From NCBI GenBank assembly GCA_021779665.1, contig JAJYAG010000045.1, positions 1 through 39,572 of the forward strand: a DNA stretch of 39,572 nucleotides. Reading direction: 5' to 3'. Positions 26,543 to 38,536 of this stretch are shown here, one piece after another. Positions within the stretch are counted from its first letter, which is position 1, and every line of letters begins with the position of its first letter. The notes under the pieces were generated by a model. The model was not told where the DNA came from. It was given only the letters and a program-made list of their open reading frames with translations, and made no database searches. The DNA is from Bacteroidota bacterium. Lineage in GTDB: Bacteria; Bacteroidota; Bacteroidia; Bacteroidales; JAAUTT01. Made by a program: the position numbers and the translations under genes.

Positions 26543-26589
26543 TGAAATTTAAGGTCCATAATCCGAGACTAATGTTTACCTCAGACAGA

Positions 26590-26606
26590 TTTAACGTTAA
26601 CTTAAC
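26590..26606 (-). promoter_or_regulatory. Phased TTAA box (Pho-box-like) of the first PiT gene
   Basis: On the coding strand this reads GTTAAGTTAACGTTAAA: outer TTAA cores 11 bp apart with a third core between. It matches the box at 32946-32962 in 15 of 17 positions and the one at 38412-38428 in 13 of 17. An 11-bp repeat period is what OmpR/PhoB-type regulators bind. Assignment to a phosphate regulator is inferred. Confidence 0.5.
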
Positions 26607-26669
26607 ATAAACATTCTGTAAGAAACTGTTTTTCAGAAATTTATTCAAAAACCTTCAATCAGGTTATGA

Positions 26670-28091
26670 TCAGAGGAACATTCTGAATAACAGGAACAGG
26701 CCGCCAGCCATTATTATTGTAACAGGAAGTGTAACCAGCCATGCAATGAGAATGCTTTTAACAGTTTTCATGCGCAGGTTTTTAACCCCGTTTGTTGCAA
26801 CCATTGATCCGGCAATCCCCGAAGATAGAATGTGTGTAGTACTTACAGGCAATTTCAGATGGGTTGATATGAAAATAGTACTGGCAGCAACCAGCTCAGC
26901 CGACATACCCTGTGCGTAAGTCAGATGTTCTTTACCAATTTTCTCTCCAATGGTAACTACAATTCTTTTCCATCCTACCATGGTTCCTATACCTAATGAT
27001 AGTGATATAATCAGAATTACCCACCAGGGAGCATACTCGGTATATGTTTTTATTTCGTTTACCGATTCCTCCAACAAATCTTTCTGTTTCTTATCGAGTT
27101 TTATTTTTACAAGATCATCTTTGGGCTTTATAATATTGTTTAACTCCTTTGCCGAAAGAAGAATTTCTTCGCGCAATAATTGAGGCTGGCCTTTCTTTAA
27201 ATCATTAAAGCTCTTTACACCGGTTAAAACATATTGGATGGTATCCATTCTGTTATTTACATCTTTCAAAGTTCCCTTTTCAACTTCCGTAAAATTAGTC
27301 TGGTCGATACCGGTTATGATATTTTCCACCTGATTAACTTTCACCAAAAGATTTTCGGGATGTTTGGAATGATTCAGCGAAAAACTCATAGGAACAAGCG
27401 CTATCAGAATAATCATTATTAACCCTACGCCTTTTTGTCCGTCGTTGGAACCATGCGTATAACTGACACTGGTACAGGTTAATACTAAAATTGAACGGAT
27501 GAGAAAAGGTGGTGCTTTCTTTTTGCTTGGTTCATCAAATAGCTTTTTATACTTTAATTTTTTTGTGATTTTTTTCAGTAACTGAACCAGTAACATGGTC
27601 AAACCAAAGCCAATTAACGGAGATACCATCAGGGATAATCCGGCATCTTTTACTTTGGTCCAGTTGAGACCTACATTATCGATCCCGGGCAATAAGCTGA
27701 ATGCCAGACCCACTCCAAACAACGACCCTAATAAAGTATGAGAACTTGAGCAGGGAATTCCAAAGTACCAGGTTCCAAGGTTCCAGATAATAGCAGTAAA
27801 TATAATTGCCAGAATCATTGCAATATTGTGACTTACGCTCTGATCCAGCAGAATATCCATAGGTAAAAGGTTTATGATCCCGATAGCAACACCAATCCCG
27901 CCAAAGTAAACCCCAATAAAGTTAAAAATGCCCGACCATACAACTGCAATACCAGGTTTTAGTGAGTTGGTATAAATTACAGTTGCCACAGCATTCGCCG
28001 TATCATGAAACCCATTGATAAATTCGAATGCACATGCTGCCACCAGGCAGATAATTAAAATTGTTGTTAAACCCGGGTCAAGACCAAACAT
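26670..28091 (-). CDS. Inorganic phosphate transporter, PiT family (second copy)
   Basis: This 473-aa paralogue of the adjacent transporter has the same N-terminus (MFGLDPGLTTILIICLVAAC) and the same two signatures (NGFHDTANAVAT; THGSNDGQKGVG). The C-terminal LPVSTTHILSSGIAGSMVAT segment is also shared. The hydrophilic central loop (about 245-355) differs in sequence but has a similar length and charge. Having two copies suggests specialised affinity, partner or regulation. The start ATG is clear. Both genes share promoter features and lie on the same strand, but a box and promoter also sit between them, so they are probably separate transcripts. Confidence 0.94.
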   Translation of the reverse strand: MFGLDPGLTTILIICLVAACAFEFINGFHDTANAVATVIYTNSLKPGIAVVWSGIFNFIGVYFGGIGVAIGIINLLPMDILLDQSVSHNIAMILAIIFTAIIWNLGTWYFGIPCSSSHTLLGSLFGVGLAFSLLPGIDNVGLNWTKVKDAGLSLMVSPLIGFGLTMLLVQLLKKITKKLKYKKLFDEPSKKKAPPFLIRSILVLTCTSVSYTHGSNDGQKGVGLIMIILIALVPMSFSLNHSKHPENLLVKVNQVENIITGIDQTNFTEVEKGTLKDVNNRMDTIQYVLTGVKSFNDLKKGQPQLLREEILLSAKELNNIIKPKDDLVKIKLDKKQKDLLEESVNEIKTYTEYAPWWVILIISLSLGIGTMVGWKRIVVTIGEKIGKEHLTYAQGMSAELVAASTIFISTHLKLPVSTTHILSSGIAGSMVATNGVKNLRMKTVKSILIAWLVTLPVTIIMAGGLFLLFRMFL

Positions 28092-28131
28092 ATAATTTTT
28101 ATTTGTTAGAAATTTGATGATTAAATCAGCC

Positions 28132-28139
28132 GAAAGATA
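28132..28139 (-). promoter_or_regulatory. Candidate -7 element of the second PiT gene
   Basis: TATCTTTC on the minus strand lies 41 bp before the start codon, in the same TATCTTTCGGC context as the promoter of the first PiT gene. Confidence 0.45.
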
Positions 28140-28188
28140 GATATTTTAGTTTTCCCTTCGTTTGTACAGCTCTATGTTTCAGATAGAT

Positions 28189-28222
28189 TTAATATTGACT
28201 TAAGATAGAGTTAACATTTAAC
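28189..28222. promoter_or_regulatory. Triple phased TTAA box between the second PiT gene and the orphan gene
   Basis: TTAAT at 28189, TTAAG at 28200 and TTAAC at 28211 follow each other at exactly 11 bp, with a further TTAAC at 28218. The box is about 98 bp from the minus-strand transporter start and about 91 bp from the plus-strand orphan start, so it could serve both divergent genes. Confidence 0.5.
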
Positions 28223-28312
28223 CTGATAAAAGTTAAAACAAATTTTTCAATCAAACGTAGAAATAATCGGTTTTTATAACTAATTTTATTTCCATATTTA
28301 AAAATTTGAATT

Positions 28313-28621
28313 ATGGGACACGGACATTCAGACCCGGAAGAAGCAAAACAAAAAATTCTGATTAAACGCAGCCAGAAAAAATATCACTTACCGGTTATTG
28401 GTCATTTTGCCGACAGAAGTGTCAGGTTCAACTCCATTATGGAAGCGTGGCATGCAACCGGAATTCACTATACCTTAATATTCGAAGCGTGCATTGGAAA
28501 AATATATAAAGCAAAAAACGTAATCTGGGAATTCGAAAAAGGTAACCATTTTATAAAGTATAAAGCTTTTTATATCAATGCTCAGGAAAGCTATACACGC
28601 ACAACCGGAATAACCGGCTAA
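28313..28621 (+). CDS. Small hypothetical protein
   Basis: This 102-aa soluble protein starts MGHGHSDPEEAKQKILIKRS. It has no signal peptide and no TM segment, is basic, and contains His-rich and aromatic stretches (EAWHATGIHYTLIFEACIGK). No family recognised. It is transcribed divergently from a phosphate transporter across a shared regulatory box and is followed by a strong terminator. Codon use and the isolated good ATG support it as real. Confidence 0.6.
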   Translation: MGHGHSDPEEAKQKILIKRSQKKYHLPVIGHFADRSVRFNSIMEAWHATGIHYTLIFEACIGKIYKAKNVIWEFEKGNHFIKYKAFYINAQESYTRTTGITG

Positions 28622-28653
28622 GAAATTACCGATTTATGAGAAAGACAAAACAA

Positions 28654-28684
28654 AACGGTCGGGCATTCTACCCGACCGTTTTTT
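28654..28684. terminator. Bidirectional terminator
   Basis: AACGGTCGGG (28654-28663) and CCCGACCGTT (28671-28680) form a perfect 10-bp stem with a 7-bp loop, flanked by A-rich and T-rich runs. It serves the orphan gene (+) and the convergent MORN gene (-). Confidence 0.88.
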
Positions 28685-28707
28685 GTTTAAATCCTCTTTA
28701 GAATTCC

Positions 28708-29160
28708 TTATTTCGAATAATCTTTTTCAAGAAGAAGTTTCCCGTTTTCGTCCCAGGTGAGCCATTTTCCGGTTTTTCTGCCATTCTCGTAATTCATTTC
28801 ACAACGTTTTGTCCCATTATCATCCCAGATAATCCATTTGCCATGCTTCTGGTTATTTTTGAAAGCTGCTTCAGAAACCTTTATACCATTCTGGTTATAT
28901 GCCGCCCAAACCCCGTCAAAGTTCCCGTTTTTATACGAACGAATTTCCCGCAATGAACCATCTTCAAAGTAAACTTTCATCTGACCATCCACCAGTCCGT
29001 TGACAAAACTGGCTTCCTGTTTTACAATTCCATTGTCGAAATACTCGGCAAACAAACCATCAGATTTATTATTTGCTGAAAGAGTATTTGCTTCCTGTGC
29101 ATTTGAGGATTTAACCAGGCCTAAAAATAAAAAGCTGAATATTATAAGTATATTTTTCAT
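28708..29160 (-). CDS. MORN-repeat (YwqK-like) secreted protein
   Basis: This 150-aa protein has a signal peptide (about residues 1-21, SSNAQ). About five MORN_2-type repeats follow, each built around a G-xx-ExxFxNG or GKWxxWDxNG pattern (for example NQKHGKWIIWDDNGTK and NGRKTGKWLTWDENGK). Such proteins are often labelled YwqK antitoxins, but here there is a secretion signal and no toxin gene next door, so that label is not supported. It probably forms an extended beta-sheet for binding at the membrane. A phased TTAA box lies 56-93 bp upstream. Confidence 0.8.
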   Translation of the reverse strand: MKNILIIFSFLFLGLVKSSNAQEANTLSANNKSDGLFAEYFDNGIVKQEASFVNGLVDGQMKVYFEDGSLREIRSYKNGNFDGVWAAYNQNGIKVSEAAFKNNQKHGKWIIWDDNGTKRCEMNYENGRKTGKWLTWDENGKLLLEKDYSK

Positions 29161-29215
29161 TGGGAAAAGGTTTTATGTTTTTCTATTAATCTATTTACAA
29201 TCTCGATTAAAGATA

Positions 29216-29253
29216 TTAAGCCTATCTCACAACAATCTTAATCTAATCTTAAA
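29216..29253. promoter_or_regulatory. Phased TTAA box upstream of the MORN gene
   Basis: TTAAG at 29216, a degenerate TCACA at 29227, TTAAT at 29238 and TTAAA at 29249 are all at 11-bp steps, 56-93 bp ahead of the minus-strand gene. Confidence 0.4.
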
Positions 29254-29329
29254 TTTCGGCGTGAAAGTGCCAATATTCCCATTTTTGTGCTGGATGTAAA
29301 CCTTTATCCACCTGCCGTGAAGCAGAATT

Positions 29330-29345
29330 TTAACATTAAATTAAA
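29330..29345 (+). promoter_or_regulatory. Phased TTAA box upstream of the lone regulatory-domain gene
   Basis: TTAAC (29330) and TTAAA (29341) are 11 bp apart with another TTAAA between them (29336), the same three-core pattern as at 26590 and 32946. It lies 87 bp before the ATG at 29432. Confidence 0.45.
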
Positions 29346-29431
29346 ATTCGGGATTATTTCAGACTTACTTAGGATTGTATAAAGCTATGATTCAGATATA
29401 AAACATTATTTTGCAGGCAAACTTACTTCTT

Positions 29432-29833
29432 ATGGCTTTGATAAAAATTCTCACTCCATATCTTCTCGTTGCATTTAGTATTGGAACTCATAATGTTTAC
29501 GGCCAAACGGGAAAAATTCGCGGACAAGTTGTTGATGCTCAAACTGAGGAGACTTTGGCAGGTGTTGACATTTCGGTGCAGGGAACAAAAATAAAAGTGT
29601 TGACCGACATGGACGGTAACTTTACAATTAATATTAAGCCCGGAATTTTCAAAGTGGAAGCTTCATTAATATCTTATGAAACAATTGTTACAGGAACAAT
29701 TGAAGTCAAAAATAATGAAACTGATGAAATTAAAATAAAGCTTAATCCGGTTAACGTTGTAAATTCAAAAGAAGCCGGATCGATAATATTAAAGCAACTA
29801 ATAACAGAAAATACCGATTCAGGCAGAGGTTAG
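29432..29833 (+). CDS. Stand-alone carboxypeptidase-regulatory-domain protein
   Basis: This 133-aa protein starts at the ATG at 29432 (MALIKILTPYLLVAFSIGTH). The frame could be opened from a TTG seven codons earlier. It has a signal peptide ending VYGQ, then one CarboxypepD_reg-like beta-sandwich (KIRGQVVDAQTEETLAGVDI; DMDGNFTINIKPGIFKVEAS). It closely parallels the N-terminal domain of the TonB-dependent receptor encoded 200 bp downstream, but stops shortly after the domain, just where the receptor's plug region would begin. It may be a truncated receptor remnant or a small accessory protein. Confidence 0.7.
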   Translation: MALIKILTPYLLVAFSIGTHNVYGQTGKIRGQVVDAQTEETLAGVDISVQGTKIKVLTDMDGNFTINIKPGIFKVEASLISYETIVTGTIEVKNNETDEIKIKLNPVNVVNSKEAGSIILKQLITENTDSGRG

Positions 29834-29877
29834 TTTGATAAGCTTTGTTGGTTCTTTTATATTTCTTTCAGATACCA

Positions 29878-29893
29878 TTAAGGTATATTTAAG
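29878..29893 (+). promoter_or_regulatory. Phased TTAA box upstream of the TonB-dependent receptor
   Basis: TTAAG-GTATAT-TTAAG has two identical cores 11 bp apart, 139 bp ahead of the receptor start. The 198-bp gap between the two genes contains no gene. Confidence 0.4.
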
Positions 29894-30031
29894 GCCTGCC
29901 CAATAAACAACTGTTAACCAGCCAATTTAGAACTTCCCTGATTATTCTGTTTTCAGAATAAGATAAATCCGGCTTAAGTTACGCGTAATGTTAAACCTGT
30001 TCTTTTGCTGCGTAAACCAAACCAATATTTT

Positions 30032-32899
30032 ATGTTTAATCCCATAGTAAAAGAAAAACAACTCTTCAGAAGTTCCTTAATTTTAGTATTCCTCTTTCTT
30101 TCGGCTTATATTTTCGGGCAATCCGGTAAAATTGAAGGAACCATCACCGACAGTAAAACTGGTGAAACGTTGCCAGGAGCAACGGTTGTTGTGGTTGGAA
30201 CCAACCTGGGAGCCATAGCCGATTTCGATGGCCACTATACAATTCCGAATGTCAAACCAGGCCAATACCAGGTTCAGATATCTTTCATCTCTTACAATCC
30301 GGTAATATTCGAGAAGGTTGCTGTTGAGGCAAATAAAGTAACCCAGCTAAATACAACCCTTGCAGAGGTTAGTGTTACATTGAATAATGTTGAAGTAGTA
30401 GCTGTAAAGCGAGGGGGATCGGAACTATCGATGATTAGTGCTATTAAAAGTACACAGCTTGTGGCAAGCGGTATTTCGAGTCAGCAGATTCAACGCTCGC
30501 AGGACCGGGATGCCTCAGAGGTTGTAAAAAGAATACCGGGAATTACAATCCTGGACGACCGTTTTATTGTGGTGCGCGGTCTGAATCAGCGTTACAATAA
30601 TGTGTGGCTCAATAATTCAGCGACACCCAGCAGCGAAACAGATATTAAAGCTTTTTCGTTCGATGTGATTCCAAGTTCCATGATTGAGAACATGATGATT
30701 TACAAATCAGCTGCCCCGGAAATTCCTGCCGATTTTACAGGAGGGTTTGTAAAGATCTTCACTAAAAATATGCCCGACAAAAACTCTTACAGCATTGGTT
30801 ATTCTTCATCGTTTTCTTCTGGAACTACATTTGGAGATTTCTACAATTTCGAAACCGGTAAAAATAACTGGACAGGGTTCGACAAAAACAGAGCTCTTCC
30901 CTCCTATTTTCCCGATAACCTGCAGAATGCTTCAGCAAACGATCAGATTGAACTTAGTAAAAGATTGAATAATAACTGGTCGCCGTTTAAAACCACAGCA
31001 ATACCCGATCAACGGTTTGCCTTTGTGATGACACACAGAATTAAGCTGGGCAGGACCACTCTTGGGGAGTCAACCTCAGTAAACTATTCAAATACGAATG
31101 ATTTCAATACAGTTTTAAACCGGAATTTTGGCGTTTACAATTTCGTTGAAAATAAGCCGGGAATAGATTTCGATTTTACCGACAGTGTTTATAACCAGAC
31201 AGCCAAAACAGGGATTATGAACAATTGGTCGTGGTTTATTGGCAACGGTCATAAAATTGAACTTCGTAACCTCTTTAACAACCAGGGGAAGTACCGCACT
31301 TCTTTCAGGCATGGAAGAGAATATTACAGCAACACCGAAATATGGTCGATGGAAAACGGCTTCACCAACCGGCAGACTTACTCGGGTCAGTTGAGCGGAA
31401 CCCATTCATTTAAAGAAGGAAATACAAAAGTAGACTGGGTGGGTGGATACGCTCTTGCGAACCGTAATGAACCGGATTTGAAGCGGATAAAAAGAAATCT
31501 TAACGAGACACCGTCGGACCCAAATTATCGTCAATATGGCCTTTTTATTCCAACCAACCCGCTTTCGAGTAACGCAGGCCGGTTATTTATGGACATGAAC
31601 GAAAATATTATTTCCCTGGGAATTAACCTGGAACAAAAGCTGAGCATGGGCAATTACAAACCTTTTTTCAGAGCCGGATTTTATGGTGAAAAAAAAGACC
31701 GTAATTTCAAAGCCCGAAAGCTGGGGTACATTTATTCTAACCTAAGTCAACGCGACAACAGCATCCAGTATTTACCAACCGAAGAATTATTCTCAGGAAA
31801 TTATTTTAATAATACAACCGGAATTAAGTTGGCTGAAGAAACCTCAAAGTCTGATTCGTACACAGCCACAAACGATTTATATGCTGCTTACATTGGACTG
31901 AATTTGCCGGTAGGAAAAAAGATTAACATCTACGGCGGCATCAGGGCAGAACAAAACCGGCAGGTGCTCAACAGTTACGATAGGTTTCAGCAACCTATTA
32001 AAGTTGTAAACGACACATTGAACATATTTCCTTCACTCAACATAACCTTCAACTTTACTGAAAAAAGTCTCATCCGCTTTGCTTATGGTAAATCGGTTAA
32101 CAGGCCCGAATTCCGTGAAGTAGCTCCATTTCCTTTTTACGACTTCGAAAATAATGCAGTATTCTCGGGTAATCCTGATCTTAAAAATGCCTATGTGGAT
32201 AATTTTGATTTCCGCTTTGAGCGCTATCCCTCGCAATTCGAAACCTTCTCTGTCGGATTTTTTTACAAATCGTTTAAAAATCCGATTGAAATAAAGTATG
32301 CCGAAACCGGAAGCGGATTGGAATATACCTATCAAAATGCTGATGAAGCTCAAAGCTATGGCGTTGAAGTAGAGCTTAGAAAAACATTGGGAAAACAGGG
32401 GTTGTTCAAAAAAATATCAGCCGTGGTTAACGGTGCATATATCAAAAGCACCATCAATTTTACGAACACGATTACCGACTTAAACCGCCCCATGGCAGGA
32501 CAGTCGCCATATGTTTTCAACGCGGGACTTTACTATGACGATGCAGAAAAGTCGAAACTCATGGTTAGCCTTCTTTACAACGTCATAGGAAAAAGAATTC
32601 ATATAGTTGGTTTACCAAAAGAGCACGAATGGGAAAATATTCCCGATGTTTACGAGATGCCCCGCCATCTGCTGGATTTAACTATATCGAAGAAAATTGG
32701 TAAACACCTCGAAATAAAAGGCGGTATAAAAGACATTCTGAATCAGGCTGTCCTCTACCAGCAAAATATTGATACCAATGTTGACATGAGTTTCTATAAT
32801 CATGGTGAAGTTTCGGTTAAAAACGTGAAAGCAGATCAAACTTTCAGAAAGTATAAACCCGGGAGTTACTATACGTTGGGAGTCCAGTTCCAATTTTAA
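30032..32899 (+). CDS. TonB-dependent outer-membrane receptor (SusC-like N-domain)
   Basis: This 955-aa outer-membrane transporter starts at the ATG at 30032; a TTG nine codons earlier also opens the frame. It has a signal peptide (about residues 1-30, SAYIFGQ) and a CarboxypepD_reg-like domain (about 33-110: KIEGTITDSKTGETLPGATV). The plug follows (about 140-245: DASEVVKRIPGITILDDRFIV), then a 22-strand-type barrel ending in aromatic YYTLGVQFQF. The substrate cannot be read from the sequence. No SusD partner follows. Instead an Ig/beta-helix surface lipoprotein does, with TTAA boxes in between, pointing to a phosphorus-related uptake role by association. Confidence 0.93.
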   Translation: MFNPIVKEKQLFRSSLILVFLFLSAYIFGQSGKIEGTITDSKTGETLPGATVVVVGTNLGAIADFDGHYTIPNVKPGQYQVQISFISYNPVIFEKVAVEANKVTQLNTTLAEVSVTLNNVEVVAVKRGGSELSMISAIKSTQLVASGISSQQIQRSQDRDASEVVKRIPGITILDDRFIVVRGLNQRYNNVWLNNSATPSSETDIKAFSFDVIPSSMIENMMIYKSAAPEIPADFTGGFVKIFTKNMPDKNSYSIGYSSSFSSGTTFGDFYNFETGKNNWTGFDKNRALPSYFPDNLQNASANDQIELSKRLNNNWSPFKTTAIPDQRFAFVMTHRIKLGRTTLGESTSVNYSNTNDFNTVLNRNFGVYNFVENKPGIDFDFTDSVYNQTAKTGIMNNWSWFIGNGHKIELRNLFNNQGKYRTSFRHGREYYSNTEIWSMENGFTNRQTYSGQLSGTHSFKEGNTKVDWVGGYALANRNEPDLKRIKRNLNETPSDPNYRQYGLFIPTNPLSSNAGRLFMDMNENIISLGINLEQKLSMGNYKPFFRAGFYGEKKDRNFKARKLGYIYSNLSQRDNSIQYLPTEELFSGNYFNNTTGIKLAEETSKSDSYTATNDLYAAYIGLNLPVGKKINIYGGIRAEQNRQVLNSYDRFQQPIKVVNDTLNIFPSLNITFNFTEKSLIRFAYGKSVNRPEFREVAPFPFYDFENNAVFSGNPDLKNAYVDNFDFRFERYPSQFETFSVGFFYKSFKNPIEIKYAETGSGLEYTYQNADEAQSYGVEVELRKTLGKQGLFKKISAVVNGAYIKSTINFTNTITDLNRPMAGQSPYVFNAGLYYDDAEKSKLMVSLLYNVIGKRIHIVGLPKEHEWENIPDVYEMPRHLLDLTISKKIGKHLEIKGGIKDILNQAVLYQQNIDTNVDMSFYNHGEVSVKNVKADQTFRKYKPGSYYTLGVQFQF

Positions 32900-32924
32900 T
32901 ACTGTAAGATTTTTCAGGCATTCC

Positions 32925-33013
32925 TTAAATATGAGCAAATCACACCTTAAGTTAACCTTAAAAAATCAGTTCCAAGATCTTCATTTTTAAGGTTTTGATA
33001 AAATACACTTAAG
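32925..33013 (+). promoter_or_regulatory. Cluster of phased TTAA boxes upstream of the beta-helix lipoprotein
   Basis: The strongest box (32946-32962) reads CTTAAGTTAACCTTAAA, with outer cores 11 bp apart and nearly identical to the box of the first PiT gene. TTAAA at 32925 is 22 bp upstream in phase. A second pair, TTAAG at 32987 and 33009, is also 22 bp apart. The start codon is at 33070. Confidence 0.5.
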
Positions 33014-33069
33014 TATTAACTCACCTTAAATCTATTGCTTTGTACCAGTTAATTAAAACAAAATTATCT

Positions 33070-34620
33070 ATGAAAAGAAAAAACTTATTTATTCTGCTTT
33101 CACTTGTTTCAACATTATCGTTTACAGTGTTTTCGTGTAAAAAAGATGATGATGTGAAAGTGACCGGTATTAACCTTGATAAAGAAACTGCAACGGTAAG
33201 AGTCGGTGCAACGGTAGATATTACTCCATCCATCCAACCGGTTGATGCTTCCTCAAAGGAAATCACCTGGAATTCTACCGATGAAGCTATAGCAACAGTG
33301 GCAAACGGGACTGTAACCGGTGTAGCTTCAGGTTCAACCTGGATAGTGGCTGTTACCCGGGATGGCGGGTTTCGTGATTCGGTAAATGTGATTGTAGAAC
33401 CGGCAGCCGGATCAGTTGTAACCTTATCGGGAAACATTACCGCGAACACTCTTTTAAAAGCCGATGTAAAATATGTACTCGATGGCTGGGTTTACGTTAA
33501 AGATGGCGCAACCATTACCATCGAAGCCGGAACTTTAATTAAGGGAAAAACCGGCACCAAGGCATCGTTGATAATTGAGCGTGGTGCAAAAATAATTGCC
33601 GAAGGTACGGTAGATAAACCAATCGTTTTCACATCCGAAAAAGCTGCAGGATCGAGGAATGCAGGTGATTGGGGAGGTATTATTATCTGCGGTAAAGCAA
33701 GAATTAACCCGACCGGAGGAGAAGCCGAAATTGAAGGTGGTGTGGGTTCAAAATATGGAGGTACCAACGACGATGATAACTCCGGCGTTTTGAAATATGT
33801 TCGGATTGAATATGCCGGCTACGCTTTTGCAACCGACAAGGAAATAAATGGTTTGACCCTTGGTGGTGTGGGCCGTGGCACTGTAATAGATTATGTTCAG
33901 GTTTCTTATTCAAACGACGACTCATTCGAGTGGTTTGGCGGAACAGTGAATTGCAGGCACTTAATTGCCTTTTCAGGACTTGATGATGAATTTGATACCG
34001 ATTATGGTTTCTCAGGCAATGTTCAATATGCTGTTGGTTTAAGAAATCCTGATATTGCCGATATCTCCAAGTCGAACGGTTTCGAATCGGATAACGATGG
34101 TACCGGTTCTACCAACACACCGGTTACAAATCCCAAATTTGCCAATGTAAGTCTTTATGGACCAAAAGCAACACTTGTCTCAGCAAGCAACTCTCTGTAT
34201 CAGGCGGCCATGCACCTGCGCCGCAAATCAGCTTTGGAAGTATATAATTCAGTATTTGCGGGATGGCCTAAAGGTTTAATGATGGCCGATTCCAAAGGAA
34301 ATGCAGGTAATATCCAGATCAAAGGCTGTGTTTTTTCGGGTATTGCCGACAATTACAGCGGCAATACAGCCGGTGAGCAGGCCTTCTTTACCGATGCTGC
34401 CCGCAGTAACCGCACATATAATGAAAATTCGGAAATTAAGGTTACCGCTCCGTTTAGTTTAACAGCTCCCAATTTCCTTCCCCAGACAGATTCTCCGCTG
34501 TTAACAGGCGCAACAACTTTACCGGCCGGACTTGAAGCTACCGATTATGTAGGTGCTTTCAAAACAACCGACTGGACTTCCGGGTGGGCGAACTGGACAC
34601 CCAATACAACTGCCTACTAA
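33070..34620 (+). CDS. Surface lipoprotein with Ig-like domain and parallel beta-helix
   Basis: This 516-aa protein starts at the ATG at 33070 (MKRKNLFILLSLVSTLSFTV). The lipobox VFS-Cys23 is followed by KKDDD, an acidic stretch of the kind known to send Bacteroidota lipoproteins to the cell surface. A Big_2 Ig-like domain (about 29-112; VTGINLDKETATVRVGATVD) is followed by a right-handed beta-helix region rich in Gly/Asn/Thr (RNAGDWGGIIICGKARINPT, about 185-480). No catalytic motif is recognised. It sits directly downstream of a TonB-dependent receptor, in the place usually taken by a SusD-type binding protein, so ligand capture for that receptor is a plausible role. Confidence 0.85.
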   Translation: MKRKNLFILLSLVSTLSFTVFSCKKDDDVKVTGINLDKETATVRVGATVDITPSIQPVDASSKEITWNSTDEAIATVANGTVTGVASGSTWIVAVTRDGGFRDSVNVIVEPAAGSVVTLSGNITANTLLKADVKYVLDGWVYVKDGATITIEAGTLIKGKTGTKASLIIERGAKIIAEGTVDKPIVFTSEKAAGSRNAGDWGGIIICGKARINPTGGEAEIEGGVGSKYGGTNDDDNSGVLKYVRIEYAGYAFATDKEINGLTLGGVGRGTVIDYVQVSYSNDDSFEWFGGTVNCRHLIAFSGLDDEFDTDYGFSGNVQYAVGLRNPDIADISKSNGFESDNDGTGSTNTPVTNPKFANVSLYGPKATLVSASNSLYQAAMHLRRKSALEVYNSVFAGWPKGLMMADSKGNAGNIQIKGCVFSGIADNYSGNTAGEQAFFTDAARSNRTYNENSEIKVTAPFSLTAPNFLPQTDSPLLTGATTLPAGLEATDYVGAFKTTDWTSGWANWTPNTTAY

Positions 34621-34640
34621 AGCATAAGAATCTAAAAGCA

Positions 34641-34676
34641 AAATGGCATTCCGTATGAGCGGAATGCCATTTTTTA
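34641..34676. terminator. Bidirectional terminator
   Basis: AAATGGCATTCCG (34641-34653) and CGGAATGCCATTT (34660-34672) form a perfect 13-bp stem with a 6-bp loop and a T run after it. It sits between the beta-helix gene (+) and the patatin gene (-). Confidence 0.9.
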
Positions 34677-34682
34677 TATTTA

Positions 34683-35540
34683 TTAATATTGGTTCAGCCA
34701 CTCCTCAAAATCCGAAAGCTTTTTTCGGGCAAGTACCATCGCTTCAGTATAAACTTTAGCTGTTTTGTGAGGTTTGTTTTCGAGCCTGCTTACTTCAAGC
34801 TTCTCATCCGGACGGATTACATAAACCTTTCCTTCTTTTTCCAGAATCTCCAACCGGCGTACAGAGGCATTGTATTGTTCGGCCCTGTTTTGCAACATCT
34901 CGTAGACTATTGGGTATTTCCGGTAATACCATTTAAAAAGCGAACCAAACTTCATTGGTTCTTTGATGTATCCCTTTGGCTGCGTTAATATAACAACAGC
35001 TCTGTTATGACCGTGATTTAATGCATACTCAAAAGGAATAGAATCGGTTAAGCCACCATCCAGCAATAATTTTCCTTCATACGAAACAATGGGAGCTATC
35101 AGGGGTAAGGAACTGCTGGCAGCTAAAACGGTTCTGAAATTCTTTTTGTCGACCTCGTTTAACAAAAAGAATTCCGATTCGCCTGTGAGGCAATTGCTTG
35201 TGCCAACGTAAAATTTACTTTCCGATTTTTTAAGGGCTTCGTAATCGAATGGAATAATCAACTGGGGGATCTCTTCATAAATAAATTTCCACGAAAATAA
35301 TGAACCCTGTCGCATTAGATTATGGAGGCTACAGTAACGCCTGTCGCCAATATAATCGTTAACGGCAATATTTCGTCCGGCCTGCTGAGAGAGGTACGAC
35401 ACCCCGTAAGCTGCTCCGGCAGATACTCCGTAAACAGATTCGAAAAAGAAATTTTTTTCAAGAAACACTTCTAAAATCCCGGCAGTAAAAATGCCGCGAA
35501 AGCCGCCACCTTCCAATACCAGGGCAGTATTTTTAATCAT
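34683..35540 (-). CDS. Patatin-like phospholipase
   Basis: This 285-aa protein starts at the ATG at 35540 (MIKNTALVLEGGGFRGIFTA); a further-upstream TTG is rejected. Catalytic features are intact: oxyanion loop GGGFRG (residues 11-16), nucleophile elbow GVSAG with Ser40, and LLDGG with Asp161 as the dyad partner. No signal peptide, so it is cytoplasmic or membrane-associated, like the RssA/YjjU type of bacterial patatins. Expected activity is hydrolysis of acyl groups from phospholipids. It is divergent from the histidine kinase gene with 149 bp between the starts. A role in lipid turnover under phosphate limitation would fit the neighbourhood but is speculative. Confidence 0.9.
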   Translation of the reverse strand: MIKNTALVLEGGGFRGIFTAGILEVFLEKNFFFESVYGVSAGAAYGVSYLSQQAGRNIAVNDYIGDRRYCSLHNLMRQGSLFSWKFIYEEIPQLIIPFDYEALKKSESKFYVGTSNCLTGESEFFLLNEVDKKNFRTVLAASSSLPLIAPIVSYEGKLLLDGGLTDSIPFEYALNHGHNRAVVILTQPKGYIKEPMKFGSLFKWYYRKYPIVYEMLQNRAEQYNASVRRLEILEKEGKVYVIRPDEKLEVSRLENKPHKTAKVYTEAMVLARKKLSDFEEWLNQY

Positions 35541-35689
35541 TCGGAATTCCCTATATAACAGTAAAAACAAAAAACCTTCAAATATAATACAACTGCTTCC
35601 CCTATTTCATAATACCCATAAGTTATTTGAAAATTAGCGGACAAATTATACTTTTAACAATTATAACATACCGCCCTTATTCTTTTAAA

Positions 35690-37615
35690 ATGAAAAAGTT
35701 ATGTATTCTTCTGGTTCTGTCGCAGTTTTTTTTCATTAATACGAATGCACAGAATCTCGACTCTCTGGAAAAGGTTATTGTTAAAGAGGGAATTAAAACA
35801 TCAGATAAGTTAAAAATTTACGACGATTTAAGCTGGGGATATTTATCTTCCGATTTTAAAAAAGCTTCTTTTTATGCTAACAAAGGAATTGAATTAGCTC
35901 AAAAAGTTAATGATCCGCTTATGGAGGGAACCCTCTACCGGAATTTGGGAATCACTTATTACATGTTTAGTAAGTTCGATTCAGCTTCCATGTTTTATGA
36001 AAAAGCAATGCAATGTGCAATATCCGCAAACAACCTGAATCTTCAGGCCCTGATAAATTCTGCCATTGGAAATCTTTATAACATGAAAGGTGAATATCAA
36101 ACTGCGTTAAAATATTACTTAAAAGCTCTTCCTGTTTTTGAAAAACTGGGAAATAAACAGCGCATAAGAATTTTACTCGGAAATACAGGAACATTATATT
36201 TAGGATTGAACAATTTCGCTCAGGCCGAAAAATACTTTCTAAAATCAAAAAAAATTGCCGAAGAAATTAATGATCTGGAAGGCTTAGGCCAGGCATATGA
36301 AGGTTTATGCCGTATTTATATCGATAAAGAGCAATACGGGAAAGCAATAGAATATGGAAAACAAGCCATAGAAACCTTTCATTCCACAGGCAATAAATTG
36401 TTTGAGGCTAATTCAATGCAATCTCTTGCGATGGCCTATTACAATGGACCTAAGGATTATGATAAAGCAGAAATGCTTGCACTTAAAGCTTTAGACATTA
36501 ATAATGAAATAGGGCTCCCAGGACACATAGCAGGAGCTCTTAATATGCTTTCAAATATCGCTTTTCACAAAAAACAATATGAAAAATGTAAACAATATGC
36601 TATAAAAGGATTTAATACCGACTCAACCGATTCTAATATAAACAGTAATTTAATGGCTAATCTGGTTCGGTCAGGAATATGGCTCGGGGATAAAAAAATG
36701 GCGAATGAGTATTTTGATAAATACAGAGACATAATTGACATTAGGGGAACAAAAGAATTTCAGAATACTTTAACGGAAATGGAGGTTAAATACGAGACCG
36801 AAAAAAAACAGATTAAGATAGAAGCACTTGAAAAAGAAAAGAAGCTTTTTTTGTTATTAACCATTTCGGGTGCCTCTGTATTGATTTTATTGATTACGGC
36901 TTTATTCCTGGTTTATAAAAACATTAAGAATCAAAAAAGAATCGTAGAAGAAGAAATGAAGAATTTGGAGCAAAAGCAGAAGCTGGTTGCTACTCAGGCT
37001 GTCCTCGATGGCGAAACCGCCGAAAGAAGTCGCCTTGCTAAAGACCTGCATGACAGTTTAGGTGGTATGCTTGCTGTAGTAAAACTTAATCTGCAAGACG
37101 CAAAAAAATTAACGGTTCTAGATTCGGGAGAAGTTAATAGTTTTAACAAAGCTTTAGATTTATTGGATAATTCGATTAAAGAACTAAGAAGAGTTGCACA
37201 TCATATGATGCCGGAATCGTTAATGCGATATGGATTAAAAGTTGCTTTATCTGACTTTTGCGAATCAATATCCGTTGCTAAATTTCAACATTTTGGGCTC
37301 GATAGCCGAATTGAAAATAAACTCGAGGTACTTCTTTATCGCTCTGCACATGAGTTGGTGCATAACGCCCTTAAACATGCTGAAGCCACTCAGATTAACG
37401 TTCAGCTTATTCAGGAATCGGACCGGATTTCGTTAACAGTGCATGATAATGGCAAAGGCTTCGATGCAAAAAAAGAATTTATGGGTATGGGGTTAAAAAA
37501 CATCAAGCAGCGGGTAGAGATCTATAACGGCATAATTGATGTGTATTCCGAAAAAAATAAAGGTACTGAAGTAAATTTGTCATTTCAGCTTAACCCTGAG
37601 AATAATGCTTATTGA
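35690..37615 (+). CDS. TPR-containing sensor histidine kinase (NarL/DesK class)
   Basis: This 641-aa protein starts at the ATG at 35690 (MKKLCILLVLSQFFFINTNA). A frame opening from a TTG 21 codons earlier is not favoured. It has a signal peptide, then about six or seven TPR units (about 30-370, for example YQTALKYYLKALPVFEKLGN) as a periplasmic sensor, a TM at about 385-407, a short coiled coil, a HisKA_3 domain with phospho-acceptor His454 (KDLHDSLGG), and an HATPase_c domain (NALKHAEAT; DNGKGFD; GMGLKNIKQRVE). Kinases of this class normally signal to LuxR/NarL-type regulators. The only regulator next to it is an OmpR/PhoB type on the opposite strand, so pairing is doubtful. The region is AT-rich. 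Confidence 0.92.
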   Translation: MKKLCILLVLSQFFFINTNAQNLDSLEKVIVKEGIKTSDKLKIYDDLSWGYLSSDFKKASFYANKGIELAQKVNDPLMEGTLYRNLGITYYMFSKFDSASMFYEKAMQCAISANNLNLQALINSAIGNLYNMKGEYQTALKYYLKALPVFEKLGNKQRIRILLGNTGTLYLGLNNFAQAEKYFLKSKKIAEEINDLEGLGQAYEGLCRIYIDKEQYGKAIEYGKQAIETFHSTGNKLFEANSMQSLAMAYYNGPKDYDKAEMLALKALDINNEIGLPGHIAGALNMLSNIAFHKKQYEKCKQYAIKGFNTDSTDSNINSNLMANLVRSGIWLGDKKMANEYFDKYRDIIDIRGTKEFQNTLTEMEVKYETEKKQIKIEALEKEKKLFLLLTISGASVLILLITALFLVYKNIKNQKRIVEEEMKNLEQKQKLVATQAVLDGETAERSRLAKDLHDSLGGMLAVVKLNLQDAKKLTVLDSGEVNSFNKALDLLDNSIKELRRVAHHMMPESLMRYGLKVALSDFCESISVAKFQHFGLDSRIENKLEVLLYRSAHELVHNALKHAEATQINVQLIQESDRISLTVHDNGKGFDAKKEFMGMGLKNIKQRVEIYNGIIDVYSEKNKGTEVNLSFQLNPENNAY

Positions 37616-37622
37616 GCTCCCA

Positions 37623-38324
37623 TCATTTGGCTACCTCAAACTTATAACCAACTCCTTTAATGGTTTTTATCAAATTATCGCCTAGTTTTTCGCGGAGTTT
37701 GCGGATATAAACATCGAGGGTACGATCGCCCACAAAAGTCTCGTTGCCCCAGATAAAGTCAAAAATTTCCTCACGGGTAAAAACTTTGGAAGGTTTTGAA
37801 GTAAGAAGTTTTAGAAGTTCAAATTCCTTTTTGGGCAGATAAACTTCATTGCCATCAATCAGAACATTATATTTTTCATTGTCGATAACTATATTTCCTA
37901 AAGATAACTGAGGTTCCTGAGCCTGATTTTTTGGAGCATTGGGTGCATACCTTTTCAGCAGTGCATTAATGCGACTGATCAGAAGCTTTGGCCTTATAGG
38001 CTTCGCAATATAATCGTCTCCTCCTGCTTCAAAACCCGCTATCTGGGAATAATCCTCGGTACGGGCAGTAAGAAAAGCTACGATGCAATTATTAATTTCA
38101 GGTGTTTCCCTGATGCGTTCGCACATTTCAATTCCATCCATTTCAGGCATCATAATGTCAAGAAGAATAAGATGCGGCTGAATTTGAACTGCCAGCGAAA
38201 GTGCATTCTTTCCATTGTTGGACGTATAAATCTGAAACCCTTCTTTTTTCAGATTATAACTAAGAAATTCAAGTATATCGGGCTCATCGTCGACAATTAG
38301 TATTTTATATCCGTTTTGATCCAT
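37623..38324 (-). CDS. OmpR/PhoB-family response regulator
   Basis: This 233-aa protein has a receiver domain (residues 6-120) with acidic pocket Asp12-Asp13, phospho-acceptor Asp56 in LILLDIMMPEMDG, Thr86 and Lys108 (YIAKPIRP). A winged-helix DNA-binding domain follows (about 135-230; KEFELLKLLTSKPSKVFTRE; GDRTLDVYIRKLREKLGDNL). Sequence style is closest to PhoB/PhoP-like regulators of Bacteroidota. No PhoR-type HisKA kinase is adjacent. It is convergent with the TPR kinase (7 bp apart). A TTAA box like those ahead of the phosphate genes lies 88 bp upstream of its own start, suggesting autoregulation. Confidence 0.9.
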   Translation of the reverse strand: MDQNGYKILIVDDEPDILEFLSYNLKKEGFQIYTSNNGKNALSLAVQIQPHLILLDIMMPEMDGIEMCERIRETPEINNCIVAFLTARTEDYSQIAGFEAGGDDYIAKPIRPKLLISRINALLKRYAPNAPKNQAQEPQLSLGNIVIDNEKYNVLIDGNEVYLPKKEFELLKLLTSKPSKVFTREEIFDFIWGNETFVGDRTLDVYIRKLREKLGDNLIKTIKGVGYKFEVAK

Positions 38325-38372
38325 GGCTAAATTTTATAGAATCAAAACTAGCCTTTCAATGTAAATCAATTG

Positions 38373-38388
38373 TTAAGCAATATTTACC
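38373..38388 (-). promoter_or_regulatory. Secondary phased site upstream of the response regulator
   Basis: TTAAG (38373) and TTACC (38384) on the plus strand are 11 bp apart. It is weaker than the box at 38412-38428 and may be chance. Confidence 0.25.
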
Positions 38389-38411
38389 ATTAAATAAAAA
38401 TAAAGGTGCGA

Positions 38412-38428
38412 TTTAACGTTAGGGTAAT
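38412..38428 (-). promoter_or_regulatory. Phased TTAA box upstream of the PhoB-like regulator
   Basis: On the coding strand this reads ATTACCCTAACGTTAAA, 13 of 17 matches to the box ahead of the first PiT gene, with the CTAACGTTAAA half almost fully kept. It lies 88 bp upstream of the start codon, like the other boxes (87-107 bp). Confidence 0.4.
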
Positions 38429-38431
38429 ATT

Positions 38432-38530
38432 AGGAGTTTAGGCTGTAGGTTATAGGCTGTAGAGTGCAGGCTGTAAGAAAATACACAAATGTATTTACCT
38501 ATAGCCTACACCCCTATAGCCTAAACTCCT
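38432..38530. repeat. Imperfect inverted repeat in the 3' region of the esterase gene
   Basis: The left arm at 38432-38462 begins AGGAGTTTAGGCTGTAGG and the right arm at 38499-38530 ends CTATAGCCTAAACTCCT. An inner dyad (AATAC...GTATT) lies near 38481-38495. The left arm also repeats ggctgtag internally. It may form a long hairpin past the esterase stop codon at 38537 and act as a terminator for it, though no T run is present. Confidence 0.6.
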
Positions 38531-38536
38531 TTTCAG

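Follow-up and report, generated by a model that had tools for sequence, protein, structure and literature searches.

Bacteroidota are major recyclers of phosphorus in soil, sea and gut, and the 39,572-nucleotide stretch analysed here as a whole (the window), from a genome of the order Bacteroidales (G000), raises the question of what is signalled by a TTAA motif that recurs ahead of two phosphate transporter genes and several of their neighbours. An earlier note had proposed that TTAA cores 11 bp apart form the Pho box of this lineage, and that the small genes beside them belong to its regulon. We conclude that the motif is very probably the Pho box of a Bacteroidota PhoB-type response regulator, most likely the one at 37623-38324. 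The genes concerned are the following:

25088-26497, minus strand: PiT phosphate transporter, copy 1 (PF01384, 292 bits)
26670-28091, minus strand: PiT phosphate transporter, copy 2 (PF01384, 290 bits)
28313-28621, plus strand: orphan of 102 aa, oriented divergently from PiT (without a Pfam match up to E 10)
28708-29160, minus strand: MORN-repeat protein (PF07661)
29432-29833, plus strand: lone carboxypeptidase-regulatory-like domain protein (PF13715)
30032-32899, plus strand: TonB-dependent receptor (PF13715, PF07715, PF14905)
33070-34620, plus strand: lipoprotein with a Big_2 domain (structure model pLDDT 81)
37623-38324, minus strand: PhoB-like response regulator (PF00072 and PF00486)

Eight exact TTAA-N7-TTAA pairs are present in the whole window, at 25165, 26591, 28189, 28200, 29238, 29330, 29878 and 32947. 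The first lies within the coding sequence of PiT copy 1 and was absent from the earlier note; the other seven are intergenic, all fall at 26.5-33 kb and agree with the coordinates given there, and zero exact intergenic pairs lie upstream of the other window genes, among which the earlier note had noticed none ahead of the fucose, MCP, truA or Bat genes. A further pair proposed at 38412-38428 survives in part, as one of its cores is TTAA whereas the partner is an imperfect GTAA. Over the whole window a spacing of 11 bp is unremarkable (8 pairs, vs 0 to 12 at other spacings). Within intergenic DNA there are 7 pairs at this spacing vs 0-5 at the remaining spacings from 5 to 39, and an order-3 Markov simulation of intergenic pairs gave a mean of 1.4 and reached at least 7 in 0/1000 runs. 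Of the core TTAAGTTAACGTTAAA that three boxes were said to share, an exact copy occurs at PiT copy 1 alone; the lipoprotein box departs from it at one position and the box at 29329 at two. Searched genome-wide as bare patterns, neither TTAAGTTAACGTTAAA (17 matches vs 30 for the reversed control) nor CTTAASN6TTAA (52 vs 96) is enriched; giving fewer matches than their reversed controls, such patterns are too weak a description and were rejected as a definition of the box, and only a fuller matrix combined with position relative to genes tells the box from the AT-rich background.

The fuller description is a tandem box of 11-bp units with a consensus of approximately cTTAACATT-N3. Ahead of the transporters and the small genes, the following sites were delineated:

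26588-26615, plus strand: putative Pho box upstream of PiT copy 1, units TTAACGTTAAC / TTAACATAAAC on the plus strand, inverted relative to its gene
28186-28224, plus strand: putative Pho box of three units between the divergent PiT copy 2 and 102-aa orphan genes (12.4 and 14.8 bits; TTAA pairs from 28189 and 28200)
29238-29252, strand not applicable: second, MORN-proximal TTAA pair, from the earlier note (exact pair; below 6.5 bits by the matrix)
29327-29354, plus strand: putative Pho box between the divergent MORN and regulatory-domain genes (13.7 bits)

When the window was held out and scored with a matrix from other genomes, values of 13.7-22.1 bits were obtained at PiT copy 1 (whose box alone reaches 22.1 bits), PiT copy 2/orphan, MORN/regulatory-domain and the regulator, values of about 8 bits at the receptor and lipoprotein, and values of at most 5.6 bits at ten other window upstream regions. 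The pair at 29238-29252 is graded as weak because of its matrix score. A similar box likewise precedes the PiT gene of the related genome G003, and the MORN/regulatory-domain interval holds TTAA pairs in G003 and in locus L162 too. Of the small genes proposed for the regulon, the 102-aa orphan is a weak case, with the exact pair upstream of 1/4 copies examined. This orphan, which may resemble a NUMOD1-like DNA-binding protein, is divergent from PiT in G001, G002 and G004 also (52-71% identical), and its structure model is poor (pLDDT 53).

The association with phosphate genes was counted across 139 sources (the window, L031, L033-L050, L111-L130, L161-L180 and L182-L260; left out were the short loci L001-L030, L032, L051-L110 and L131-L160, and L181, a duplicate of a G004 stretch). 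Gene classes were assigned by phmmer using proteins of the window and its relatives, and the phosphate class comprises transporters and regulators together with relatives of the receptor, lipoprotein, MORN, regulatory-domain and orphan proteins. TTAA-N7-TTAA occurs in 122/224 phosphate-class upstream regions vs 70/839 controls; with the window's genome removed the count is 114/211 vs 70/839, and this association, together with the exact promoter spacing and the regulator orthology described below, supports the reading as the Pho box of this lineage. Among spacings of 5 to 21, 11 alone stands out in the phosphate class (122 vs 15-46); another, smaller peak follows at 22 (68), and the controls show a small excess at 11 (70 vs 22-59 elsewhere). 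Merging shared regions left 95/190 vs 54/669, and outside the genus the merged count was 77/158 vs 40/529. A two-fold cross-validated matrix at 12 bits separated the classes further (97/158 vs 21/529, with halves divided by locus number and relatives present in both). These enrichments are probably understated because the control regions seem to retain phosphate genes, as judged by eye (a metallophosphatase in L204, glycosyltransferases and porin-like proteins).

Resolved by class, the exact pair lies upstream of 5/11 PstS, 11/17 PiT-PhoU, 7/12 PiT, 47/90 regulator, 5/9 porin, 24/36 receptor and 16/30 lipoprotein genes. The pst genes are preceded by a box in 5/5 genus genomes, ahead of the porin in four and ahead of pstS in G004, where one core reads CTAA; in other families the exact pair stands ahead of pst or its porin in just 2/8 pst stretches, and the Saprospira grandis locus has no intergenic site of at least 10 bits. 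No exact pair precedes the PiT genes of G001 (C55) and G004. In the window's genome a third PiT gene scores 12.6 bits but lacks the exact pair, and there is no good box at two pstS-like genes, one on C219 (-2.5 bits) and one on C215 (2.4 bits). As expected of a Pho box, the spacing peak and the matrix describe tandem head-to-tail 11-bp units with about seven conserved and four variable bases, located upstream of pst genes and of genes for phosphate transporters and regulators, though not universally.

The units also keep preferred distances to the promoter. Counts of TTAA starts are highest at 26, 37 and 48 bp upstream of the -7 element TAnnTTTG (14, 16 and 15 vs 0-7 at other distances of 4-80), and the total observed at offsets 15/26/37/48/59 was reached in 0/2000 permutations. 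A box of at least 7 bits with a phased -7 element (one mismatch allowed) was found at 80/211 phosphate-class regions vs 23/863 controls, the offsets having been derived from largely the same data, and moving these offsets by 1-5 bp reduced the phosphate-class count to 3-21/211. Phasing distinguishes the following sites ahead of the receptor, lipoprotein and regulator genes:

29878-29892, strand not applicable: TTAA pair of the earlier note, TonB receptor upstream (exact pair; below 6.5 bits; unphased with the -7 element)
29971-29998, plus strand: promoter-phased box, TonB receptor (7.9 bits)
30000-30007: -7-like TTCTTTTG, TonB receptor (exact offset of 26 from the box; one mismatch)
32937-32964, minus strand: box of the earlier note, lipoprotein upstream (7.8 bits; exact pair; unphased with the -7 element)
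32984-33033, plus strand: promoter-phased box, lipoprotein (units from 32987, 32998 and 33009; 8.0 and 6.3 bits)
33035-33042: -7-like TTGCTTTG, lipoprotein (box offsets 48 and 26; one mismatch)
38343-38350, minus strand: -7 element TAGTTTTG, regulator gene (exact TAnnTTTG; start codon 26 bp on)
38352-38379, minus strand: promoter-phased box, regulator gene (TTAACAATTGA TTTACATTGAA; 12.9 bits; offset 26 from the exact -7; absent from the earlier note)
38410-38437, plus strand: box of the earlier note, regulator upstream (15.0 bits; inverted relative to the regulator gene)

By the phasing test the boxes of these three genes lie at 29971, 32984 and 38352, some 40-95 bp from the sites first named for them. 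The -7 element is exact at the regulator and has one mismatch each at the receptor and lipoprotein, and the strongest box-plus-promoter unit in the window is the regulator gene's own. For the boxes of PiT, the orphan, the MORN gene and the regulatory-domain gene, the expected offset holds no -7 element.

That TTAA pairs are merely frequent in AT-rich intergenic DNA is a reading to which we give almost no credence. The bare and rigid patterns show no genome-wide excess, and two window intergenic stretches away from the claimed genes reach 8.9 bits (9863) and 9.0 bits (13183), more than the boxes of the receptor and lipoprotein do, and scores of 10.8 and 10.5 bits occur in two stretches of coding sequence. 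Chance is contradicted, however, by the peaks at spacing 11 and its multiple 22 ahead of phosphate-class genes, by five intergenic matches of at least 13 bits in the window (two overlapping) vs 0.08 expected, and by the exact promoter phasing; it was rejected on spacing specificity, merged regions, cross-validation, simulation and phasing.

Which protein reads the box is suggested by the regulator gene and its relatives. The window regulator has a full-length receiver and an OmpR/PhoB winged helix, and its two best curated models are PhoB models, the top one being Bacteroidetes PhoB; it scores under the cut-offs of both (NF053854, 218.6 against 270; TIGR02154, 205.9 against 296.2). It is 65% identical to the G004 regulator that adjoins pst-phoU, the two form one clade in the tree (support 100/85), and on these sequence comparisons it is orthologous to that regulator. 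A phosphate-class neighbour lies within 7 kb of 55/101 regulator relatives (lipoprotein 40, receptor 35, PiT-PhoU 17, PstS 5, PiT 4, PhoU 1), and the neighbourhood is similar in other families, with receptor, lipoprotein or PiT-PhoU.

Alternatively, the box could be phosphate-linked but have as its main reader a different OmpR-family protein, for which paralogue B (G000:C12:6764-7468) is one candidate, or be shared by several paralogues acting together, which we consider rather unlikely. Paralogue B is 65% identical to the window regulator and in G004 has a TTAA box directly upstream; in G001 it is the only close relative at E<=1e-40, yet the pst operon is boxed, and in G002 (85% complete) pst is boxed with no regulator relative found at E<=1e-40. 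Because pst is boxed in these two genomes without a window-type regulator at this threshold, another regulator may also read the box, and the small spacing-11 excess ahead of control genes persists. However, in the stretches covered from four genus genomes no phosphate-class gene lies within 7 kb of paralogue B, and in the window's genome the region upstream of paralogue B lacks a box (-1.7 bits), whereas the clade of the window regulator adjoins pst-phoU or the receptor, and the strongest box-plus-promoter unit found in the window belongs to this regulator.

No HisKA kinase adjoins the window regulator. The TPR/HisKA_3 kinase at 35627-37615 was rejected as its partner, as the kinase domain is of the NarL type and the G030 regulator adjoins a HisKA kinase instead. 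A kinase at C244 of the window's genome is a clear orthologue of this G030 kinase (50% identity; next best by score 32%); it scores under the PhoR cut-offs, and a 10.2-bit site lies upstream of ribE-phoR.

The design of the box is already known elsewhere, and a TTTAACA motif has been published for one Bacteroidota PhoP; the wider box definition and the promoter spacing appear to be new, judging from the accessible portions of the papers cited below. The cyanobacterial SphR Pho box consists of CTTAACCT repeats and resembles ours in its 8-bp units, CTTAAC core, 3-bp linkers, 11-bp period, direct repeats and location upstream of pst (PMC1906773), whereas the consensus here runs on with AT(T) rather than CCT, often has two units rather than at least three, and is tied to TAnnTTTG. 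The E. coli PhoB box is likewise built of two direct repeats, each 11 nt long with 7 conserved and 4 less conserved positions, but with the core CTGTCAT instead of TTAACAT (PMC4415409), and sits 10 bp upstream of a -10 element (PMC1906773), the promoter element here being TAnnTTTG. Within the phylum, the accessible text on Bacteroides fragilis PhoRB reports binding of PhoB to the pstC promoter and a requirement for PhoB in pstC expression, and a word search of it turned up neither a consensus nor a direct repeat nor a TTAA sequence (PMC3547664). In Flavobacterium johnsoniae the receptor (pf07715, pf13715, pf14905) of the phoBR cluster (PUSIV) and its lipoprotein FII (IPR011050) are strongly induced by low phosphate (PMC8115612); as there, the window regulator is accompanied by a TonB receptor with the same Pfam domains and by a lipoprotein of the pectin-lyase-like class, whereas PiT, MORN and regulatory-domain genes are additional in the window, whose regulator lacks an adjoining HisKA kinase. 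A search of the accessible text for 'Pho box' and 'motif' found neither (PMC8115612), and tandem box and promoter geometry are not defined in the accessible parts of these two Bacteroidota studies (PMC3547664, PMC8115612). A similar published motif is the DAP-seq motif of Riemerella anatipestifer PhoP, in which TTTAACA is most conserved; this autoregulated protein binds the motif and is upregulated in phosphate starvation, but is treated as a virulence regulator, and 'pst' and 'direct repeat' were not found in the accessible text (PMC9603813).

The repeats might instead belong to an ArcA-like redox regulator, an assignment that we regard as highly improbable. In E. coli, ArcA too works through direct repeats that are rich in TTAA and spaced by about 11 bp. 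The motif of Riemerella PhoP was itself reported as ArcA-like, but that study assigns it to a PhoP upregulated in phosphate starvation (PMC9603813), and the compared genes that carry the motif are phosphate-class genes.

We return to a PhoB-type regulator as the preferred reader. The boxes are genuine and correspond to a switch that precedes phosphate genes in many members of the phylum, and therefore most likely activate their genes when phosphate is short. Under phosphate scarcity, a PhoR-type kinase (in the window's genome perhaps the one behind ribE, G000:C244:243-1304) would phosphorylate the regulator, two subunits of which would sit side by side on the same face of the helix, on neighbouring head-to-tail units of a box of two or more immediately ahead of the -7 element, and the bound regulator would recruit RNA polymerase, with units preferentially starting 26, 37 or 48 bp upstream of this element. 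The predicted regulon comprises PiT copies 1 and 2, the MORN and regulatory-domain genes, the receptor and lipoprotein, the regulator itself and a porin-pst operon elsewhere in the genome, with a plcP-like gene as a probable further member. With moderate confidence, we view these promoters as a phosphate-starvation class of the Bacteroidota's own, with TTAACAT units in strict 11-bp steps locked 26/37/48 bp upstream of TAnnTTTG, probably replacing the -33 element; it would be common to Bacteroidales-type and Flavobacterium-type members, with a regulon including TonB receptor-lipoprotein pairs, PiT, MORN-repeat and lone regulatory-domain proteins and plcP-type lipid remodelling. If so, the matrix and exact promoter spacing would make phosphate regulons of uncultured Bacteroidota predictable and open to annotation from sequence alone, and the spacing would let mutations probe directly the way in which an OmpR-family activator operates at the phylum's unusual -33/-7 promoters. 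Phosphate shortage is also suggested as the condition for several unknown envelope proteins. Among these genes, the lipoprotein is modelled as nearly all beta and probably a beta-helix; its top structure matches are tailspikes and pectate lyases (beta-helices) at low TM-scores, none at E<=0.001.

Further candidates in the window's genome were obtained with model R1, built from 42/133 sites, which scored 150/3224 first-look candidates. Ranked among the 26 scored sites only, the PiT copy 1 box is the best match, the regulatory-domain box third and the pst box fourth. Twenty-two listed sites lie neither in the window nor ahead of pst, and among the 17 whose surroundings were inspected, one precedes the plcP-like gene, one precedes ribE-phoR, two are inside coding sequence, and others stand at a peptidase C69 gene, a DUF1573/kinase pair and a sugar-kinase operon, which are not obviously phosphate genes. 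The R1-listed C230 stretch has no site of 11 bits. A rigid pattern of box plus TAnnTTTG gave 0 matches in the window's own genome (1 with the spacing shifted by 5 bp), and across 99 genomes of the order it gave 30 matches vs 23 for the 5-bp-shifted spacing, with 14 for each reversed control, raw totals that are nearly alike. In these lists, as read post hoc, a C follows the first TTAA in 15/30 phased vs 2/23 shifted matches.

The tandem TTAA motif, with cores spaced 11 bp apart, is a predicted Pho box of this lineage, a reading put forward in the earlier note and supported by association with phosphate genes, a weight matrix that scores in the held-out window, promoter spacing, and the regulator's kinship to a neighbour of pst-phoU. 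The window is one entire contig (C26) of a 6.94-Mb draft genome of 305 contigs, and the note's gene calls (two PiT transporters, MORN, a lone regulatory-domain gene, a TonB receptor and an OmpR/PhoB-type regulator) agree with Pfam annotation. Eight exact TTAA-N7-TTAA pairs are present, one within the PiT1 coding sequence and seven intergenic; all seven lie between 26.5 and 33 kb, each at a site the note had named, and its site at 38412 has one imperfect core. The seven intergenic pairs compare with 1.4 expected; in 1000 simulations the count never rose to seven. Across the window's genome the bare pattern is not enriched (52 matches versus 96 for a reversed control), nor is TTAAGTTAACGTTAAA with up to two mismatches (17 versus 30 for its control), so counting alone cannot separate the motif as first written from AT-rich background.

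We fetched 80 loci of Bacteroidota type around relatives of the regulator, one of which (Glaciecola) lies outside that phylum, and classed their upstream regions by gene. The pair occurs in 122 of 224 phosphate-class regions (114 of 211 minus the window's genome) versus 70 of 839 control regions not close to phosphate-class genes. Between 5 and 21 bp, a spacing of 11 is the sole outlier in phosphate-class regions (122 versus 15 to 46), with a second peak at 22 (68), and control regions also show a slight excess at 11 (70 versus 22 to 59 elsewhere). When regions shared by divergent genes are merged, the counts are 95/190 versus 54/669 controls, or 77/158 versus 40/529 outside the genus. At 12 bits, a cross-validated matrix recovers 97 of 158 held-out phosphate regions versus 21 of 529 controls, relatives being present in both halves. 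We place weight on the spacing peak and the cross-validation because kinship among the loci inflates Fisher p-values. At least one exact pair is found in 49 of the 73 public loci with a phosphate-class region, and the median distance from pair to start codon, ~92 bp, is close to the 87-107 bp originally proposed.

The pst and PiT-PhoU genes, absent from the set on which the motif was proposed, provide an independent test. An 11-bp tandem box lies upstream of the pst operon in all five genus genomes, the window's own included; it precedes the porin gene in four and pstS in G004, where one core is CTAA. The box reads TTAACATACGC-TTAACATTAGC in G001 and TTAACATTTAG-CTAACATTAAA-TTAATG in G004, and has three units in G003. 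Further afield in the order, two of eight stretches from other families (L128, L052) carry an exact pair ahead of pstS or its porin, and PiT-PhoU genes (~750 aa) have one upstream in loci L166, L167, L168 and L169. The gene order in Flavobacterium aquicola runs from the lipoprotein through the receptor, the regulator, another gene and a porin-like gene to pstS and the rest of its operon. The best boxes there lie upstream of the lipoprotein (score 12.7), the porin-like gene (22.2) and pstS (18.0) and in the gap between receptor and regulator (23.0). No intergenic site reaches 10 bits in the Saprospira grandis locus. In the window's genome, no box precedes the pstS-like genes on C219 and C215, and the third PiT lacks an exact pair; the PiT genes of G001 (C55) and G004 have no pair upstream.

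A weight matrix was trained on genomes other than the window's (28 bp; consensus about nCTTAACATTaanTTAAyAT), and it scores high at PiT1, PiT2/orphan, MORN/regulatory-domain and the regulator.

Scores of the foreign-trained matrix in upstream regions of the window
PiT1: 22.1 bits
PiT2/orphan: 14.8 bits
MORN/regulatory-domain: 13.7 bits
Regulator: 15.0 bits
Lipoprotein: 8.0 bits
Receptor: 7.9 bits

With this matrix, no score above 5.6 bits was obtained in ten other upstream regions of the window. The whole-window scan also returned two sites within coding sequence (10.8 and 10.5 bits) and, at 9863 (8.9) and 13183 (9.0), two intergenic ones that do not precede claimed genes; given such unclaimed sites of 8.9-10.8 bits, an 8-bit score by itself proves nothing. 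Forty-two foreign sites also served to build a profile model, with which 150 of the 3224 first-look candidates in the whole genome were scored; of the 26 matches listed, the PiT1 box came top, with the regulatory-domain box third and the pst box fourth.

The -7 element of Bacteroidota promoters is TAnnTTTG. Ahead of phosphate-class genes, TTAA starts peak exactly 26, 37 and 48 bp from this element (14, 16 and 15 counts), and the remaining distances from 4 to 80 have 0 to 7 counts; offsets 15, 26, 37, 48 and 59 sum to 51, whereas 2000 permutations averaged 14.6 and never exceeded 33. Of 211 phosphate regions, 80 combine a box scoring 7 bits or more with a -7 element (at most one mismatch) at 26, 37 or 48, as do 23 of 863 others; the offsets were derived from largely the same data, a circularity that does not affect how sharp the peak is. 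With the offsets moved by 1 to 5 bp, 3 to 21 of the 211 remain. Such phasing would be needed by an OmpR-family activator sitting on one DNA face beside polymerase. If the element begins near -12, the typical pair would lie near -49 and -38. In rigid whole-genome box-plus-promoter patterns, phased and shifted spacings were hardly separated (30 versus 23). Within the window, the TTAA pairs named in the earlier note are real, but the promoter-phased boxes of three genes stand elsewhere.

Promoter-phased boxes in the window
38352-38379, minus strand: regulator box, 12.9 bits, exact TAGTTTTG at offset 26
29971-29998: receptor box, 7.9 bits, TTCTTTTG at offset 26
32984-33033: lipoprotein box, units at 32987, 32998 and 33009, TTGCTTTG at 33035

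No phased -7 element accompanies the boxes of PiT, the orphan, MORN or the regulatory-domain gene, and a phased box with a -7 element is absent from the eight further window promoters examined. The PiT1 box is oriented opposite to its gene. An imperfect inverted repeat, gtttaggctgtagg... cctatagcctaaac, was seen by eye at 38437-38533, between the regulator and the next gene.

The window regulator is 65% identical to the G004 regulator situated behind pst-phoU; together with the G003 orthologue they form one clade (100/85), separate from a second paralogue (paralogue B) present in G000 (the window's genome), G001, G003 and G004. Its best NCBIfam models are Bacteroidetes PhoB, then PhoB, both below cut-off. 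Genes for MORN, regulatory-domain and receptor proteins adjoin the G003 regulator, and TTAA pairs lie between them; in more distant genomes, the regulator adjoins receptor and lipoprotein (G028, G008) or lies near PiT-PhoU (G018, G020, G011). Although G001 and G002 both have pst boxes, a search at E≤1e-40 turned up paralogue B alone in G001 and no such regulator in G002. Paralogue B has a TTAA box immediately upstream in G004, and in G000:C12 (L161:6764-12466) it lies in a conserved gene row with a Pfam-less protein and, by eye, HPt-like and CheY-like genes. The kinase adjoining the G030 regulator has one clear orthologue in the window's genome, behind ribE on C244. A PhoR-like kinase directly follows a ribE-like gene (named by eye) in four genus genomes, two of which have sites ahead of the pair (10.2 and 13.0 bits; G000:C244, L331:243-1993, and G003:C86, L332:5412-7197). 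The sensor adjoining the window regulator (35627-37615) is a TPR protein; its HisKA_3 kinase is of NarL type and does not match an OmpR-type regulator.

The design itself is known; its extension here from one window to many Bacteroidota and the exact promoter spacing look new, and in searches of the open-access PMC literature we recognised no paper that sets out, for Bacteroidota, a tandem Pho box or the spacing to its promoter. The 11-bp tandem is the standard PHO box design (PMC4415409), and the cyanobacterial box, CTTAACCT with linkers of 3 bp, closely resembles that of the window's lineage (PMC1906773). TTTAACA is the most conserved part of the motif bound by Riemerella PhoP (PMC9603813); in B. 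fragilis, the pstC promoter is a target of PhoB binding (PMC3547664). In F. johnsoniae, low phosphate strongly induces PlcP (pf12850) and the phoBR-cluster glycosyltransferase, receptor and lipoprotein, and the cluster's OprP and PhoR are not significantly induced (PMC8115612). A PlcP-resembling metallophosphatase has box-like sites in three genus genomes: G000:C156 (L302:3648-4501; 12-13 bits upstream), G001:C180 (L308; 17.5 bits) and G004:C4 (L119; 10.8 bits). It is likely a lipid-remodelling part of the regulon. Nearby genes include, in G000, a YegS-type lipid-kinase fragment and, in G004, a glycosyltransferase.

The 102-aa orphan (28313-28621) has no Pfam match and presumably resembles a small NUMOD1-like DNA-binding protein; it is divergent from PiT in three other genomes as well (52-71% identical), and a pair lies upstream in one of the four. 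Strong sites also stand ~200 bp upstream of a peptidase C69 gene, identified by Pfam in G000:C197 (18.8 bits, L292:4756) and by eye in G004:C15 (20.5 bits, L306:4605-4643).
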